From: a virus
Virus record (IMG/VR): IMGVR_UViG_3300029309_000418
Location: 1-20,817 of that record
Direction: 5' to 3' (one strand)
DNA: 20,817 bases
Within the stretch, counting starts at the first letter, position 1; the number at the start of each line of letters is the position of its first letter. Position numbers and translations under genes: made by a program. Below are positions 4,607 to 20,571 of the stretch, piece by piece. The notes beneath the pieces are model-generated. The model was not told the DNA's origin. It did not search any database and worked only from the letters and a program-made list of their open reading frames with translations.

Positions 4607-6225
4607 AAACAATCAACACACACACGAATTGTCCTGACTGTGGGAGCAGCGATGCTCTATGCGAAAACGAGGATGGCAGCACTAAATGTTTCAGCTGCGG
4701 AATATTTAAACCAAGCAACACACAACATAAACCAACAACACACATAAATAATATGACACCAGTTCAAGGAGATTACCAAGATTTAGTAAAGCGAAACATA
4801 CCACAATCAATTTGTCAGAAGTATGGCTACACAGTTGGTGATCACAGATCGAAGCGTTGTCAGATAGCTAACTACAGAGACAGCTCAGGTAAGCTGGTAG
4901 GGCAGAAGCTACGGTATCCAGATAAATCTTTTGAGACGGTTGGCACTGTGCGTACCCTGTTCGGTATGCACTTGTTCGGTAAAGGTAAGCGCATCACTAT
5001 TACAGAGGGAGAGATAGATGCGATGAGCGTGTCCTCTGCATTCAATGGTAAGTGGGCAGTAGTCAGTGTGCCATCAGGAGCGCAGTCAGCTATGTCTTCA
5101 ATCAAGCACAACCTAGAGTATCTAAATAACTTTGATGAGATTGTTCTCATGTTTGATATGGATGAGGTTGGTGTTGCAGCAGCTAGAAAATGTGCAGCGG
5201 TGCTGCCTGTCGGCAAGGCATTCATTGCTAACCTACCAGCCAAAGACCCTAACGAATTGTTGATGGAGAATAGAAGTAGCGAAATCATCCAGTCGTTCTG
5301 GGACGCTACTCAGTACAGACCAGACGGTATCATAGCAGGTGAGGACATGTGGGACATAGTCAGTAAGACTGAGATAGTTGATAGCTCTGACTACCCATAC
5401 GAAGGGATGAACAAGATAACAAGAGGGCTACGTGTGGGAGAGATAGTTTGCTTTGCAGCTGGTAGTGGCGTAGGCAAGTCAGCCGTGTGCCGTGAGATTG
5501 CTTACCACCTTATTAAGAACAACGAGAAGGTTGGATACATAGCACTAGAAGAAAGTATCAAGCGTTCGGCTCAAGGCATCATGGGGTTAGCCATTAATAA
5601 GACACTGCACCTTGGCACTGAGGTGGAGGAAGAAGAACTAAGGAAGGCATTTGATGCTACGGTAGGAAGCGGAAACTTTGTTACCTATGACCACTGGGGT
5701 TCTATTGAATCAGACAATCTTATCAATCGTATTCGTTACATGAACAGAGGTCTTGGATGCAAGTGGATATTCTTAGACCACGTATCAATATGTGTCAGCG
5801 GTCAAGAAGGTGACGAGCGTAAGATGCTTGACATATTGATGACAAAGTTACGGTCACTTGTTGAAGAGATAGGTGTGGGTATGATTCTTGTATCACACTT
5901 GAAGAGACCAGAGGGCAGAGGATTTGAAGAAGGAAGAGAGACAACTCTAGGACACCTTCGAGGTTCAGCAGGATTAGGACAACTGAGTGACATGGTCATT
6001 GGCTTAGAAAGAAATCAGCAGGACGAGGAAGTTAAGAACCAGACAACAGTCCGTGTTCTTAAAAACAGATTTAGCGGAGAGACAGGCGTAGCTTGCACTC
6101 TTGAATACAACAAACACACAGGAAGAATACATGAACAAAACACATACTTCAGTGCTGATGATACTCAGCCTACTACTGATAACAACACACGCCAGCCAGA
6201 GGGAAATATCGATGAACCATTCTAG
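4594..6225 (+). CDS. Bifunctional DNA primase-helicase (T7 gp4 homologue)
   Basis: 543 residues from the ATG at 4594; the frame can be opened further to a TTG at 4564, but that has no ribosome binding site and T7 gp4 likewise begins close to its zinc site. Primase part: zinc-binding Cys13, Cys16, Cys32 and Cys35 (CPDC, CFSC), then a TOPRIM domain with Glu138 (TEGEIDAMS) and Asp188/Asp190 (FDMDEVG). Helicase part: RecA-like DnaB-type fold with Walker A at 290-296 (GSGVGKS, Lys295) and a Walker B-like IFLDH strand. The C-terminus is acidic and ends NIDEPF; in T7 the acidic tail with terminal Phe binds gp5. It overlaps the endonuclease by 13 bases, and its last 95 bases also encode the start of the lysin. 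Confidence 0.96.
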   Translation: MDTLKTINTHTNCPDCGSSDALCENEDGSTKCFSCGIFKPSNTQHKPTTHINNMTPVQGDYQDLVKRNIPQSICQKYGYTVGDHRSKRCQIANYRDSSGKLVGQKLRYPDKSFETVGTVRTLFGMHLFGKGKRITITEGEIDAMSVSSAFNGKWAVVSVPSGAQSAMSSIKHNLEYLNNFDEIVLMFDMDEVGVAAARKCAAVLPVGKAFIANLPAKDPNELLMENRSSEIIQSFWDATQYRPDGIIAGEDMWDIVSKTEIVDSSDYPYEGMNKITRGLRVGEIVCFAAGSGVGKSAVCREIAYHLIKNNEKVGYIALEESIKRSAQGIMGLAINKTLHLGTEVEEEELRKAFDATVGSGNFVTYDHWGSIESDNLINRIRYMNRGLGCKWIFLDHVSICVSGQEGDERKMLDILMTKLRSLVEEIGVGMILVSHLKRPEGRGFEEGRETTLGHLRGSAGLGQLSDMVIGLERNQQDEEVKNQTTVRVLKNRFSGETGVACTLEYNKHTGRIHEQNTYFSADDTQPTTDNNTRQPEGNIDEPF

Positions 6226-6571
6226 ACCAACAGAGACTGAGATAGGTTTACTTCTCTCTGCTATCATGAAGGTAGAGACAGGTGGAGAACCTAACCCAAC
6301 CTATGCTGTAGGAAGATACCAAGAGATTGGTCCATTCCAAATTACATACAACTACTTCCTAGACTCAGGTATCAAAGGCACATGGACATACAACTGTCTG
6401 TATGTTGATCGTTCAATCAAAGTCATGCGAGCTTACTGGAACAGGTATGCCAAGCTGCACACATTAGAAGAGTATGCACGTCTACACAATGGAGGACCCA
6501 ACGGTATGTCTAATAGAAACACACTAGAGTATTGGCACAAAGTTAAAGCAGAGATGGAGGCAGGATTATGA
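6131..6571 (+). CDS. Lysozyme-like lysin (SLT-type fold) with N-terminal signal peptide; nested start
   Basis: 146 residues from ATG 6131, preceded by AGGAAG with about 5 bases spacing. Residues 1-21 look like a Sec signal peptide: MNKTHT, a hydrophobic run (SVLMILSLLLITT) and a THA cleavage site. The remaining domain resembles a transglycosylase/lysozyme of the SLT type: candidate catalytic Glu49 (KVETGGEP), a GPFQIT strand (67-72) and an ARLHNGGPNG motif (116-125) like the family's YN-GP motif. The first 95 bases overlap the end of the primase-helicase. An in-frame ATG at 6212 (residue 28) has a better ribosome binding site, GAGGGA at 6199-6204 with 7 bases spacing, and would give a cytoplasmic form of 119 residues. 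T7 has its amidase-lysozyme gp3.5 one gene earlier; this is an unrelated enzyme class in a similar place. The start and exact bond cleaved are uncertain. Confidence 0.75.
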   Translation: MNKTHTSVLMILSLLLITTHASQREISMNHSRPTETEIGLLLSAIMKVETGGEPNPTYAVGRYQEIGPFQITYNYFLDSGIKGTWTYNCLYVDRSIKVMRAYWNRYAKLHTLEEYARLHNGGPNGMSNRNTLEYWHKVKAEMEAGL

Positions 6572-15523: not shown

Positions 15524-16561
15524 ATGGCTAACGGAGACTTCTCCCCAACCCGTAGTGGCTTAATCCAAGGGGGTTCTGACAATGATGCTCTCTTTCTCAA
15601 GGTGTTCAGTGGTGAAATTCTCACCAGCTATGCTGAACATAATGTGATGAAAGACCTTCACCTTGTCCGTACAATTAGTTCTGGCAAGTCTGCACAGTTC
15701 CCCGTTTCGGGTATCGCCACCGCGAAATATCACACTGTAGGCGAAAATATCGTCGAGTCGTCAACTGGATACCTATCCAACATTGGCATGAACGAGAAGA
15801 TCATCACTATTGATGACGTTCTTGTTTCTTCGACATTCATCGCAAACATTGATGAACTCAAAAAGCATTATGACGTTCGCAGCATCTACGCTGCTGAACT
15901 TGGTAAGGCTCTAGCAAAACGTTTCGACATCGCAACGATGAAGACTCTCTATGCTGCTTCACAAGACAGTGCTAACCTCAGCAACACCGCTGCTGGTACA
16001 AGCATCACTGGTGCTACTACCAACACAGCTGCTGGCATCATTGATGCTCTATATGCTGTTGCTGAATCACTCGACAAGAACGATGCTCCAGATGAAGGTC
16101 GCTTTGCGATCCTTGCTCCAGCTACTTACTACAAGTTGCTAACATCTGACAACGTTGCTATCAACAAGGACACTGGTTCTGGCGGTAACGTCAATGCTGG
16201 TACTGTTGCAAGCGTTGCTGGTATCCGTCTTGTAAAGAGCAACCACCTTGTTGACATCGCTGAACTAGGCGATGACTCAGCAGTAACTACTGGTGATGGC
16301 TCGTCTAACAATGATGTGTTCGGTGCTAATGGTGCTGGTTACAACGGAGACTTCTCTGCGTTGACAACTGGTTCTGGTGCTACTCTTGAGTATGGTATCC
16401 TTGCTGGATGTAAGGAAGCTATCGGTACGGTCAAACTTCTTGATCTTGCTACTGAGAGCGAGTACCAAATCGAGCGTCAAGGTACATTGTTCGTTGCTAA
16501 GTACGCAATGGGTCACGGAGTTCTCCGTCCTGAGTGTGCTGTTGCAGTGAAACCTGCTTAA
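15524..16561 (+). CDS. Major capsid protein (T7 gp10 homologue)
   Basis: 345 residues, the same length as T7 gp10A, from ATG 15524 behind a good AAAGGAA site (a GTG at 15488 in the same frame lies inside the leader hairpin and is not the start). The HK97-fold coat protein is recognised by its N-terminal pattern: DNDALFLKVFSGEILTSYA (T7 ...KLALFLKVFGGEVLTAFA), TISSGKSAQFPVSG and YHTVGENI, which line up with T7 almost continuously. The rest shows the usual coat segments (LAKRFDIATM and RFAILAPATYYKLL). The C-terminus ends ...CAVAVKPA. It follows its own leader and is followed by a strong terminator, so it can be transcribed at high level separately. No decoration or frameshifted long form (T7 gp10B) is visible. 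Confidence 0.97.
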   Translation: MANGDFSPTRSGLIQGGSDNDALFLKVFSGEILTSYAEHNVMKDLHLVRTISSGKSAQFPVSGIATAKYHTVGENIVESSTGYLSNIGMNEKIITIDDVLVSSTFIANIDELKKHYDVRSIYAAELGKALAKRFDIATMKTLYAASQDSANLSNTAAGTSITGATTNTAAGIIDALYAVAESLDKNDAPDEGRFAILAPATYYKLLTSDNVAINKDTGSGGNVNAGTVASVAGIRLVKSNHLVDIAELGDDSAVTTGDGSSNNDVFGANGAGYNGDFSALTTGSGATLEYGILAGCKEAIGTVKLLDLATESEYQIERQGTLFVAKYAMGHGVLRPECAVAVKPA

Positions 16562-16573
16562 CAATTATTCAAG

Positions 16574-16603
16574 CCCTGCCCCCATTTGGGGGTGGGGTTT
16601 TTT
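16574..16603 (+). terminator. Strong intrinsic terminator after the capsid gene
   Basis: Stem CCCTGCCCCC (16574-16583), loop ATTT and arm GGGGGTGGGG (16588-16597) pair over 10 positions, two of them G-U wobbles, and are followed by six T (16598-16603). It lies 12 bases after the capsid stop, the position of T-phi in T7, and would partly separate capsid expression from the tail genes. Confidence 0.92.
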
Positions 16604-16609
16604 ATTACA

Positions 16610-16852
16610 ATGGCAAAAAGAAAAGGGCTTAGTCTAAGAAAGGAACACAAATCCAAAACAGGTGGTCTCAGTAAAAAAGGAAGAGACTACTACAACAGGA
16701 AGACAGGTTCCAATCTTAAAGCTCCTCAACCGCAAGGCGGTGCGAGAAAGCGTTCGTTCTGTGCGAGAATGAGTGGTGTCAAAGGACCCATGAAAGACTC
16801 CAAGGGCAGACCAACTCGTAAAGCTTTAGCATTAAGAAAGTGGAAGTGTTAA
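16610..16852 (+). CDS. Small highly basic protein with conserved Cys ends (DUF6321-like)
   Basis: 80 residues from ATG 16610, just after the terminator's T tract; an upstream TTG in the same frame lies inside the terminator hairpin and is not a start. It is rich in Lys and Arg (KRKGLSLRKEHKSKTGG), with a central GGARKRSFCARMSGV and a C-terminal block PMKDSKGRPTRKALALRKWKC, so Cys residues occur at about position 51 and at the end. I associate this block with a phage family I recall as DUF6321. Strong positive charge suggests nucleic-acid binding, or an internal or head protein. It has no T7 homologue here. It heads a run of three tiny genes before tail tube A. Confidence 0.75.
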   Translation: MAKRKGLSLRKEHKSKTGGLSKKGRDYYNRKTGSNLKAPQPQGGARKRSFCARMSGVKGPMKDSKGRPTRKALALRKWKC

Positions 16853-16854
16853 CT

Positions 16855-16929
16855 ATGAAAAAATGTACCTGCGGTAACTCTAAATCAAAACCATCGTGTG
16901 ATGGTTCGCACAAGCAAAAGGAAAAATAA
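16855..16929 (+). CDS. 24-residue CDGSH-type iron-sulfur micropeptide
   Basis: ATG at 16855, stop TAA 16927-16929, with GGAAG 8 bases upstream (16842-16846). The product is MKKCTCGNSKSKP followed by SCDGSHKQKEK. It satisfies the complete CDGSH pattern, C-x-C-x2-(S/T)-x3-P-x-C-D-G-(S/A/T)-H: Cys4, Cys6, Ser9, Pro13, Cys15, Asp16, Gly17, Ser18, His19. In mitoNEET-type proteins these three Cys and one His bind a redox-active [2Fe-2S] cluster. At 24 residues it is essentially only the cluster-binding loop. It lies between two basic small genes and is far below normal gene-calling length. Whether it is made and binds a cluster is untested. Confidence 0.72.
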   Translation: MKKCTCGNSKSKPSCDGSHKQKEK

Positions 16930-16931
16930 AA

Positions 16932-17063
16932 ATGAGTTTATACGAAAATATTAATCGTAGACGTAAGCTTGGAATCAGTCGTCCCAAGAGCAAGTCAACT
17001 ATAAGCAAGAAGTCTTACAGCAATATGAAAAAAGGCTTCCCTAAAAAGAAGAAAGGTAAGTAA
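16932..17063 (+). CDS. 43-residue highly basic protein
   Basis: ATG at 16932, preceded by AAGGA with 9 bases spacing; the TAA stop overlaps the tail tube A start (TAATG at 17061-17065). The product begins MSLYENINRRRKLGISRPKS and ends FPKKKKGK, with almost no acidic residues after the first few. The motif SLYENINRRRK with a basic C-terminus recurs, in my memory, in small proteins next to gp11 in marine T7-like phages. No function is known. DNA binding or internal-head localisation would fit the charge. Translational coupling to gp11 is likely. Confidence 0.68.
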   Translation: MSLYENINRRRKLGISRPKSKSTISKKSYSNMKKGFPKKKKGK

Positions 17064-17647
17064 TGGCAACGTTAACTTCTCAACTAGAATCCGTTAATGT
17101 GATGCTAGGGCATATAGGTGAAGCACCTATTAATACACTTACGGGTTCGTTACCTGTCAGCGCAACAACTGCTCTATCTACTTTGAATGAAGTAAGTAAA
17201 GAGATTCAATCAGAGGGCTGGCATTTTAACTCTGAGAAGGACGTTACATTATCTCCTGTTGATGGAACTATTACGGTTCCAACAAACGCAGTCCAAGTAG
17301 ATGCTGAGGACAAGACAATAGACTTAGTACAAAGAGGATCATCCCTATTTGATAGAGCTAACAACACATCTACTTTTGAAAAGAGTGTTAAGGTAAACCT
17401 AATACGGTTACTTGATTGGGACTCTTTACCAGAAGAAGCTCGTAGATATATTACGCTACGTGCTTCTAGAATTTTCCAAGGACGTACAGTAGGATCACGA
17501 GAGCTTGAAGCACTGATAGCTCGTGATGAATACCAAGCACGATCTCGTCTTGAAGAGTCTGACTATGGAAGCTCTGATAGAACTATATTTGACAACTACG
17601 ATGCAGCCACAAGAATTGGTGTGAATCGTAATTACGATATTTCATAA
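17063..17647 (+). CDS. Tail tubular protein A (T7 gp11 homologue)
   Basis: 194 residues, almost exactly T7 gp11 length (196). It forms the adaptor/gatekeeper ring between portal and nozzle. Characteristic segments are SVNVMLGHIGEAPINTLTG near the N-terminus, EIQSEGWHFNSEKDVTL, and YITLRASRIFQGRTVGS with the EARRYITLRA helix. The start overlaps the preceding micro-gene stop (TAATG) and its stop overlaps the start of tail tube B (ATAATG), so 11 and 12 are coupled. No unusual feature. Confidence 0.95.
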   Translation: MATLTSQLESVNVMLGHIGEAPINTLTGSLPVSATTALSTLNEVSKEIQSEGWHFNSEKDVTLSPVDGTITVPTNAVQVDAEDKTIDLVQRGSSLFDRANNTSTFEKSVKVNLIRLLDWDSLPEEARRYITLRASRIFQGRTVGSRELEALIARDEYQARSRLEESDYGSSDRTIFDNYDAATRIGVNRNYDIS

Positions 17648-20571
17648 TGGCTTTAATTAATACTCCTGTCCCTAACCTTATCCAAGGTGTATCTCAACAA
17701 CCAGACGCATCACGCTTTGCTGGTCAATGTGATGAGCAGGAAAACGCTCTTAGCTCTGTTGCAGATGGACTAAAGAAACGTCCTAATACTAGGCACGTTG
17801 GTAAGTTGCTTTCGACTGCTATAGACAGTAATAGCTTCGTTCACTTCATCAATAGAAGTGGAACTGAGAAGTATGTGATTATTCACGATGGCACATACCT
17901 GTGTGCATACAGTTTGATTGATGGCTCTGAGCAACCTATAACTGTCAATGGCGTTGAATATCTAAGCACAAATTCTAATGGCAAGTATCCCATAAGCGGA
18001 ACTTACCTTGCCTCTGACACGGCTCGTGCGTCTCTCAAGGCTCTTACGATTGCAGACAGCACATTCCTACTAAATACAGACCAAGCTGTAGGATTAGGCA
18101 CAGATAAATCTCCAGCCGTTGCAAAGGAAGCCCTCTTATTCATTAAACAAGGGGACTATAAAAAGAAGTATGGATTTAAAACAACAGTAACCGCCTCCGC
18201 TAATTCAGGATTACCTGCAAGTATTTTCTTTCAAGACACTACTAGTGGGTCATTCTACAACCGCAGAAAACATATAAATGTAATGACTGTTCCCAGTGGA
18301 GGAACGGGGTCTGGTTTTGCGGTAAATGATATTGTAGATGTTCCTCTCCCTACTAGCGGAACGCGAGAAACCTCAGACGATGACGGGAACGACTATGTCC
18401 GTAATGTAACCCTGTTCCTTTTTACACAGCCGACCTTTAGAGTAACTTCAGTAGGCTCCAACGGGGAAATAACTGGCGCAAGTATAGAAAATGCAGGTAA
18501 TTATTTTTATGCAACAAACTCTACTACTACCAAAAGGTTTGGACTTGCTAACGTGCTTGGAGCCGCAGAAGAAAGTAGCACCTATAATGGCACAGAGACA
18601 CTAACTATTGCTAGCACAAACAGCACCCCTGTTACAACAGGTAGCACAACCAATAGTGTGACATTAACAAAGGTATTTCAAAGCGGAGATAGCTCAGGCA
18701 CTGGTGCATCGGCAAATACTAATACATCAACTATCCTTGCAGGTGTTGGTGACATACAAAACACTTCTGGTGACCATCAGGGAACATCAGATGACATAGA
18801 ACTTTATTTTGAAACAACAGACCACACTGAGTCCAATTTGCTTGTCTTATCCGTTAAAGAAACAGGCGGTGTCATAGCCGCAGAAGACTTCACAATAAGT
18901 CCTGTAGATGATTTGGCTGGAGAAGGTATAGGCGTAATCTACAAGGAAGTAAATTCTATAACTGACTTACCAGTCGTCGCTAAAAATGGCTTTGAAGTAA
19001 AAGTAGCAGGTGACGCTGAACTTAACCAAGATGACTATTACGTGCGCTTTGAAACAACAGGCGGTGAAGACGTTGGACAAGGCTCTTGGGTAGAGTGCGT
19101 AGCTCCAGACCTGCGTTTAGGCTATAACGCTAACACACTTCCTATGGAGCTTATAAGTGACGGCACTGGCTTCACGCTCCGCACAATGAAGTTTGCTGAC
19201 CGAGTTGCTGGTGACGACGACTCAAACCCTCTCGCGTCCTTTGTGGCTCAAAGAATAGATAACTTATTCTTCTTTAAGAACCGACTTGGTTTCCTTACTG
19301 GAGAGAATGTCGTAATGTCTGAAAGTGGTCTAGGAGTCTTAGACACAACTGGACAACTTAATTTCAACTTTGGTCGCACCACAGTAACCACACTTCTAGA
19401 CTCTGACCCTATTGATGTATCGGTAGCCAGCAGTCGAGTGACTAATCTAAAGTCGGCTAAAGGCTTCCAAGAAAACCTTATATTATTCTCTGAGAACGGA
19501 CAATTTGTTCTTAAGGGTGGAGATGTTCTTACACCTAAGACAGTCAGCATCACGCCTGTTACTAACTTCAGCTTTGAAGACCAAGTAGACCCTCTGCCTC
19601 TAGGTTCGTATATCTACTTCCCATTTACCCGTGGTAACTTTACAGGTCTCCGTGAGTTCACTGTAAATGCCTCTACGGATGTCTATGACTCTGTAGAAGT
19701 CACTGAACACGTTCCTGCATACATCCCTAAGAACATTATCGACATGGCAGGGAGTAGCTCAGAGGACATAATTGCGTTACTCAGTGGGGACGAAAAAGGT
19801 TCACTATACATCTACAATTACTTCTGGAACAACAACCAGAAAGTACTCAGTGCTTGGTCTAAGTTTACCTTCACTGGTGAGATAAGAGGTATTGAGTTCA
19901 TTGAGTCTACTCTCTCCTTAGTTATCGTAGATGCCGCTTCAACTGAAACTAATCTCGTTGAGATGCCTCTAGAGTCTGGTCTTAAGGATGCCTCTGGTTT
20001 TGTTACTCACCTTGATATGCGAGTCGCTAAGACTGTTGCTGATGGCGCAAACACAATCGACTTAAGTAGCGACTACACACCAGCAGACAACTCTGTAGAG
20101 GTTTACACAACGGATGGTCTCAAGCTTAATGCTACAAACACAGGAGCTACTGTTAATCTTACACAAGCGGTGACAGAAGATACAAACGTATTCGTAGGCA
20201 TTCCCTACACCATGAAGTACACCTTCTCTGAACAACTCTTCAAAGCTAAGGCAGGGCAAGGAAGCAGTCCTTCTAATGCTGCCAAACTATTGATACGTAA
20301 CGGTTCAATCTACTTTGACAAGACGGCTCACTTCAAGGTTAAGGTTACTCCTAAGTTACGTGATACCTATGAAAATGTCTTTACACCTAATGTTATTGGT
20401 TCCTCATCAATAGGAACCTTGCAATTAGATAGTGGTTTCTTCAGGTTTCCTGTTTTCACTAAGGCACAAGATACAACTATTACTATTGAGAACGACAGCG
20501 CACTTCCAAGTAACTTACAAAGTGCCGAGTTTGAATCATTCCTACACTCTAGATCATCTAGGTATGCGTAA
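17647..20571 (+). CDS. Tail tubular protein B / nozzle (T7 gp12 homologue), enlarged
   Basis: 974 residues against 794 in T7. The N-terminus (MALINTPVPNLIQGVSQQPDASRFAGQCDEQENAL) is the diagnostic gp12 start, and the C-terminal half carries typical blocks such as VAQRIDNLFFFKNRLGFLTGENVVMSESG, NLILFSENGQFVLKGGDVLTPKTV and YIPKNIIDMAGSS. It forms the hexameric nozzle at the tail tip, which in related phages touches the cell surface. The extra length sits mainly around residues 185-435 (about 18200-18950), Ser/Thr/Asn-rich with a GGTGSGFAVNDI motif at about 218-229. This region probably forms external beta domains. Coupled to gp11 by a stop-start overlap, and its own stop is overlapped by the next gene. 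Confidence 0.95.
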   Translation: MALINTPVPNLIQGVSQQPDASRFAGQCDEQENALSSVADGLKKRPNTRHVGKLLSTAIDSNSFVHFINRSGTEKYVIIHDGTYLCAYSLIDGSEQPITVNGVEYLSTNSNGKYPISGTYLASDTARASLKALTIADSTFLLNTDQAVGLGTDKSPAVAKEALLFIKQGDYKKKYGFKTTVTASANSGLPASIFFQDTTSGSFYNRRKHINVMTVPSGGTGSGFAVNDIVDVPLPTSGTRETSDDDGNDYVRNVTLFLFTQPTFRVTSVGSNGEITGASIENAGNYFYATNSTTTKRFGLANVLGAAEESSTYNGTETLTIASTNSTPVTTGSTTNSVTLTKVFQSGDSSGTGASANTNTSTILAGVGDIQNTSGDHQGTSDDIELYFETTDHTESNLLVLSVKETGGVIAAEDFTISPVDDLAGEGIGVIYKEVNSITDLPVVAKNGFEVKVAGDAELNQDDYYVRFETTGGEDVGQGSWVECVAPDLRLGYNANTLPMELISDGTGFTLRTMKFADRVAGDDDSNPLASFVAQRIDNLFFFKNRLGFLTGENVVMSESGLGVLDTTGQLNFNFGRTTVTTLLDSDPIDVSVASSRVTNLKSAKGFQENLILFSENGQFVLKGGDVLTPKTVSITPVTNFSFEDQVDPLPLGSYIYFPFTRGNFTGLREFTVNASTDVYDSVEVTEHVPAYIPKNIIDMAGSSSEDIIALLSGDEKGSLYIYNYFWNNNQKVLSAWSKFTFTGEIRGIEFIESTLSLVIVDAASTETNLVEMPLESGLKDASGFVTHLDMRVAKTVADGANTIDLSSDYTPADNSVEVYTTDGLKLNATNTGATVNLTQAVTEDTNVFVGIPYTMKYTFSEQLFKAKAGQGSSPSNAAKLLIRNGSIYFDKTAHFKVKVTPKLRDTYENVFTPNVIGSSSIGTLQLDSGFFRFPVFTKAQDTTITIENDSALPSNLQSAEFESFLHSRSSRYA

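Follow-up and report, generated by a model that had tools for sequence, protein, structure and literature searches.

Introduction

In the solved CDGSH proteins, a [2Fe-2S] cluster is held by three cysteines and one histidine, and nine positions of the 17-residue motif are universally conserved, namely C2, C4, S/T7, P11, C13, D14, G15, S/T/A16, and H17 (Lin et al., PMC3174974). All solved CDGSH domains also contain an N-terminal strand, a lid-proline motif, and hydrophobic residues at motif positions 1 and 12, and these two positions are part of the core of the CDGSH sandwich (PMC3174974).

Here we analyzed a 20,817-bp linear virus record of IMG/VR (designated as the window, i.e., the whole stretch of DNA that was analyzed). 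We propose that it carries an optional late gene for a bare CDGSH module of 24 residues. The most likely role of the product, to which we assign a probability of roughly 45%, would be that of a late minimal [2Fe-2S] carrier or redox peptide.

Gene organization of the locus

The window belongs to a marine phage, and its genes are ordered as in T7-like podoviruses, with integrase, tRNA-Leu, RNA polymerase, DNA polymerase, portal, scaffold, capsid, and tail tube genes; its early genes were named by reading the translations. The tRNA-Leu (CAA) at 1070–1155, downstream of the integrase gene, is complete and possibly represents an attachment site. No exact match to its 3′ end was found in the genome contigs searched for a host, and the integrase gave no useful match in genome contigs as a host clue. 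A lysis-gene candidate is located at 6101–6571 and showed a weak match to Destabilase (i-type lysozyme) just below the cut-off. The features around the micropeptide gene are as follows.

15524–16561, plus strand: major capsid protein (Gp10A-like)
16571–16600, plus strand: intrinsic terminator-like hairpin with a T-run, right after the capsid gene
16610–16852, plus strand: basic 80-aa protein DUF6321 (PF19846), which adjoins the CDGSH gene also in other podoviral and viral loci
16842–16846, plus strand: GGAAG, a weak ribosome-binding site 8 bases 5′ of the ATG, within the C-terminal codons of DUF6321
16855–16929, plus strand: CDGSH micropeptide gene, 24 aa, ATG to TAA, identified by its frame, PF09360 match, and codon conservation
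16864–16911, plus strand: CDGSH signature C4-x-C6-x2-S9-x3-P13-x-C15-D-G-S-H19, identified by sequence, PF09360 match, and the consensus in PMC3174974
16932–17063, plus strand: 43-aa basic protein (phrog_25774), next in the micropeptide cassette
17063–17647, plus strand: tail tubular protein A

The CDGSH gene is housed in a cassette whose products are tiny, strongly basic, and often Cys-containing, with net charges of about +23 for DUF6321 and +14.5 for the product of 16932–17063. The hairpin separates the capsid gene from this cassette, and the cassette would therefore be expressed by read-through together with the tail genes. The terminator after gene 10 in T7 provides an analogy for the hairpin.

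The frame at 16855–16929 consists of 24 codons followed by TAA and is translated as MKKCTCGNSKSKPSCDGSHKQKEK. All nine universally conserved CDGSH residues are present (compared with the consensus in PMC3174974), and Cys4, Cys6, Cys15, and His19 are the predicted 3Cys:1His ligands. Pfam zf-CDGSH (PF09360) matched residues 4–20 at 30 bits (E = 6.4e-7), above the gathering score of 29.5 bits, and the closest relative of solved structure by sequence was 3tbn (E = 2.6e-8). PHROGs contained no family for the peptide. The ATG is located 2 bases past the upstream stop codon, which is consistent with coupled translation, and the GGAAG doubles as coding sequence for part of the conserved W-K-C end of the upstream gene. 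A previous sequence-only reading of the window had described this frame with its coordinates and nine-residue motif, the GGAAG at a spacing of 8 bases, and tight packing between two small genes. All of these were confirmed: the motif by the Pfam match above the cut-off, the GGAAG with its overlap into the last upstream codons, and the packing by the genes at 16610–16852 and 16932–17063.

Comparison with solved CDGSH domains

The peptide has three residues before the motif and five after it. It lacks the N-terminal strand, as Met-Lys-Lys alone precede Cys4, and no GP-type lid-proline (P) motif is present anywhere within the 24 residues. Motif positions 1 and 12 are polar (Lys3 and Ser14), position 12 being Phe or Tyr in the longer relatives L003, L011, L122, L124, and L126. 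Given the missing strand, the missing lid-proline motif, and the polar positions 1 and 12, the known dimer sandwich is not expected to form. Because these domain parts are missing, cluster binding by the lone peptide is not to be assumed. If a cluster is bound, it would be bound by the bare module or with a partner, since nothing is present outside the motif and Lys and Ser occupy positions 1 and 12. For a relative of 32 aa, the predicted structure was of modest confidence (mean pLDDT of 68.9), contained no strand, and had no significant match in the PDB. The 24-aa peptide thus appears to be an isolated cluster-binding module of the CDGSH family and not a complete domain, in agreement with its earlier description as nearly just the cluster-binding loop. 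In vitro, [2Fe-2S] clusters are reported to be held even by tripeptides that have a single thiolate (PMC11812447); small size alone is therefore no bar to [2Fe-2S] binding, which is possible in principle.

Viral homologues and the micropeptide cassette

When IMG/VR was scanned with the CDGSH motif as a pattern, at least 119 stretches matched, many of which encode proteins of 24–60 aa. Among the matches listed, about twelve further viral contigs have homologues of 24–41 aa, and the window peptide is the smallest CDGSH protein among those seen in this analysis. The PF09360 cut-off was passed in 13 of 15 homologue-bearing viral records. The nearest group, characterized by KCTCG or PCTCG, comprises L013, L036, L127, L125, L128, L003, L071, L011, L026, L073, and L279, and its podoviruses have portal, scaffold, capsid, and tail genes in common with the window. 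The homologues in L122, L124, and L126 are from viruses with different surroundings, and that in L089 is more distant. Bacterial-type CDGSH contigs, such as those with the 79-aa tandem type (L032, L034, and L063), may be host DNA and were left out of the argument.

The sequence-only reading had suggested looking for the motif in related podoviruses, and the gene shows syntenic conservation among further podoviruses of marine origin. DUF6321 is the constant neighbor of the CDGSH gene, and the side of the capsid gene on which it lies varies. The CDGSH gene is located 3′ of the capsid gene in the window and L128, and 5′ of it in L013, L036, L003, and L125. The same reading had placed the gene between capsid and tail genes, which holds for the window and L128 but not for several relatives, where it lies in the scaffold–capsid interval instead. 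Only a few bases separate the DUF6321 stop from the start of the CDGSH gene in the window, L128, L036, and L125, and the two genes overlap in L011 and L279. A 52-codon frame lies between the two genes in L003, and the CDGSH gene is just upstream of DUF6321 in L122, L124, and L126. A CDGSH–DUF6321 fusion by frameshift was rejected because the spacing differs among relatives and L003 has a frame in between.

The CDGSH gene is present in the window and L128, whereas L129, L130, L131, and L137 lack it, each with a clean gap. In L129, L130, and L131, which are the nearest relatives (97% portal identity), DUF6321 is directly followed by the next small gene, and the gap corresponds to one gene. Absence or disruption of the motif in close relatives had been named in advance as evidence against the gene; it is indeed absent in the nearest ones, but as a clean cassette absence with no broken frame. 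The CDGSH gene is optional cargo that is present or absent as a unit. When the frames downstream of DUF6321 were followed at 132 loci, they formed 72 distinct chains, the frames being tiny and mostly basic; CDGSH occurred 11 times and a CGCxxC peptide 14 times, usually in the first slot. This shows that late micro-genes of less than 100 codons, some of them missed by annotation, are swapped as units beside DUF6321.

DUF6321 is a stand-alone protein in podoviruses (16610–16852 in the window) and the C-terminal domain of several PHROG families. In cyanophage ACG-2014f, it forms the C-terminal domain of a 610-aa protein (L346, 806–2638) encoded two genes upstream of terminase. In cyanophage S-CBP4 (NC_025464), an unannotated DUF6321 gene at 17896–18136 is flanked by hli and by a hypothetical gene that precedes psbA, which suggests that the region is a place for optional cargo. 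A C-terminal tail of the form [KR]KxLx[IVL][KR]K is common to the unrelated CDGSH, CGCxxC, CPKGIAWA, and MPKVG micropeptides (L003, L279, L300, L196, and L200). This pattern, chosen post hoc, occurs in 5 of 31 representatives compared with 0.04 expected on shuffling, and two of the five are CDGSH variants.

The main alternative to a [2Fe-2S] carrier is a structural metal peptide, in which a Zn (or Fe) staple would hold together a peptide that attaches to DNA or to the inside of the capsid and enters the particle like a small internal virion protein. The same four ligands could hold Zn or Fe(II), the neighboring proteins are tiny and strongly charged as noted above, and relatives have a CGCxxC micropeptide in the same slot. 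Longer podoviral CDGSH variants end with KRKQLKIRK, which resembles the tails of the CGCxxC, CPKGIAWA, and MPKVG peptides. The window peptide, however, is weakly basic (net charge +4.6) and does not have such a tail. It also retains Ser9, Pro13, Asp16, Gly17, and Ser18 besides the four ligands; these residues are needless for a plain Zn knuckle, and their retention favors a [2Fe-2S] carrier over a metal-stapled packaged peptide. We consider the structural peptide less likely, although it is the strongest competitor.

Association of viral CDGSH proteins with 2OG-Fe(II) oxygenases

Among the matches listed, a 2OG-Fe(II) oxygenase frame was found within 1.5 kb in 37 of 97 distinct viral motif loci, and the density of such frames near viral CDGSH genes was 0.37 per kb within 1.5 kb compared with 0.11 beyond 3 kb. 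In marine myoviral-type contigs, CDGSH proteins are encoded beside 2OG-Fe(II) oxygenases or fused to them. Several fusions among the matches listed consist of an N-terminal CDGSH part followed by the oxygenase (PF09360 and PF13640), the PF09360 part being below the cut-off in both whole fusions scanned. The fusion loci (L016, L068, L070, L007, L065, L076, and L094 with 279–280 aa; L008 with 243 aa) lie within clusters of several 2OG-Fe(II) oxygenases. Proximity and fusion tie viral CDGSH modules to iron chemistry. In L015 and L061, genes for an AhpC/TSA peroxiredoxin and an AhpD-like (CMD) protein are located directly upstream of the CDGSH microprotein gene.

These associations raise the possibility that the peptide donates iron or electrons to a specific iron enzyme of the phage or host, such as a 2OG-Fe(II) oxygenase. 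The clustering and N-terminal fusions in other viruses agree with this, as do the AhpC/AhpD-like neighbors in L015 and L061. No 2OG oxygenase (PF13640) was found in any of the 15 CDGSH-bearing podoviral-type records searched, including podoviral ones of 38–42 kb. On these records, a partner oxygenase in the same podovirus was rejected, and the oxygenase link does not explain the window gene; the enzyme served would have to be the host's. A dedicated donor is improbable in our estimation, and a more general [2Fe-2S] carrier or redox peptide is preferred.

Purifying selection on the CDGSH gene

In an alignment of 11 homologues, 10 columns are invariant and include all nine family residues. The nine residues are fixed in 13 distinct core sequences while all nine of their codons vary synonymously, including a change from TCN to AGT for the Ser of CDGSH. 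Over all pairs of the 13 core sequences, pS was 0.66 and pN was 0.19 (pN/pS of 0.28), and the dN/dS of the window gene was 0.24 against L128 and 0.11 against L036. The probability that random differences spare the nine residues is 6.6e-4 for 12 differences (the window–L036 number) and 0.03 for six (the window–L128 number). Because the homologue set was partly found by the motif itself, the result was rechecked on contigs found via the portal protein alone, and the motif was intact in L136, L209, L278, L279, L282, and L309. As carrier phages were the source of two of the three portal proteins used as queries, the portal searches give no prevalence estimate. No partly decayed copies were seen among the portal-found contigs and the DUF6321 loci inspected. 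The synonymous/non-synonymous comparison suggested by the sequence-only reading thus revealed purifying selection, and the codon data indicate that 16855–16929 is a genuine gene under strong purifying selection on the nine family-defining residues.

Sporadic presence and a motif left alone might suggest the remnant of a longer CDGSH protein, either decaying or neutral, but this is contradicted by the codon data, by similarly short homologues in several viral lineages, and by the lack of decayed copies, and is very improbable. A chance match in a non-coding gap, conceivable for 24 codons with no PHROG match, has a practically negligible probability and is ruled out by syntenic conservation with synonymous change and by an expectation of 8e-8 signatures (from the six-frame composition of the window) compared with one observed, in keeping with the rarity claimed earlier.

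Proposed role

As a late minimal [2Fe-2S] carrier or redox peptide, the product would be made late on tail-gene transcripts, by coupled translation after DUF6321, and would take up one labile [2Fe-2S] cluster through Cys4, Cys6, Cys15, and His19. Without a sandwich fold of its own, it may be stabilized by self-pairing or by a basic neighbor such as DUF6321. Its function would then be that of a small iron-sulfur or electron carrier while the cell is dying, and the gene would be a piece of optional metabolic cargo at the place that hli and psbA occupy in cyanopodoviruses.

When 50,697 phage records were searched by tblastn with six viral CDGSH sequences, no clear CDGSH relative was found in isolate phages; the hits were limited to MT835643, with a best E value of 0.03, and a single chance match. 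In the literature searched, no paper was found that connects CDGSH substantially with phages or viral metagenomes. The CDGSH module itself is known, and what is new to the sources searched is a phage-borne form that stands alone with 24 residues; the predicted peptide points to iron-sulfur cargo in viruses that was not described before. More broadly, we tentatively suggest that marine phages may possess widespread, undescribed stand-alone iron-sulfur micropeptides of minimal size, down to 24 residues, holding [2Fe-2S] without a sandwich fold and used as cargo or modular redox parts (free in podoviruses and, in marine viruses of other kinds, part of a fusion with a 2OG-Fe(II) oxygenase).

If the window peptide binds a cluster, it would be, to our knowledge, the smallest natural CDGSH protein known. 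In that case, the 17-residue module would work without the fold thought necessary, and marine phages would be directly linked to iron-sulfur supply in iron-poor water. Host iron-uptake genes are raised during infection by one pelagiphage, which itself has a 2OG-Fe(II) oxygenase (PMC12753301).

Comparison with known systems

The CGCxxC basic micropeptides (e.g., MKNCGCSKCAMKRKKLTIKKSKPKKY in L155) resemble the CDGSH peptide in being tiny, Cys-based, basic, and encoded directly after DUF6321. They take the same slot in some relatives and occur together with CDGSH in L125 and L036, but their motif is unrelated, and no Pfam family was found for the member tested. The auxiliary genes of cyanopodoviruses (hli and psbA in S-CBP4) are likewise optional cargo by DUF6321 in the structural-gene region, whereas the window CDGSH gene is much smaller and its metabolic role is putative. 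With mitoNEET (CISD1), CISD2, and CISD3, the peptide has the 3Cys:1His ligand pattern in common; these proteins were solved as chains of 68–92 residues forming dimers or tandem domains, while the window peptide has neither the membrane helix nor the beta-cap. The single-motif CISD/NEET types 3 and 4 (3tbo, a 60-residue chain, and 3tbm, 69 residues) share with it the nine residues at the same spacing and a Pfam score over the cut-off. In contrast to them, the window peptide has 24 residues, lacks the N-strand and the P motif, is polar at positions 1 and 12, and is encoded by a phage.
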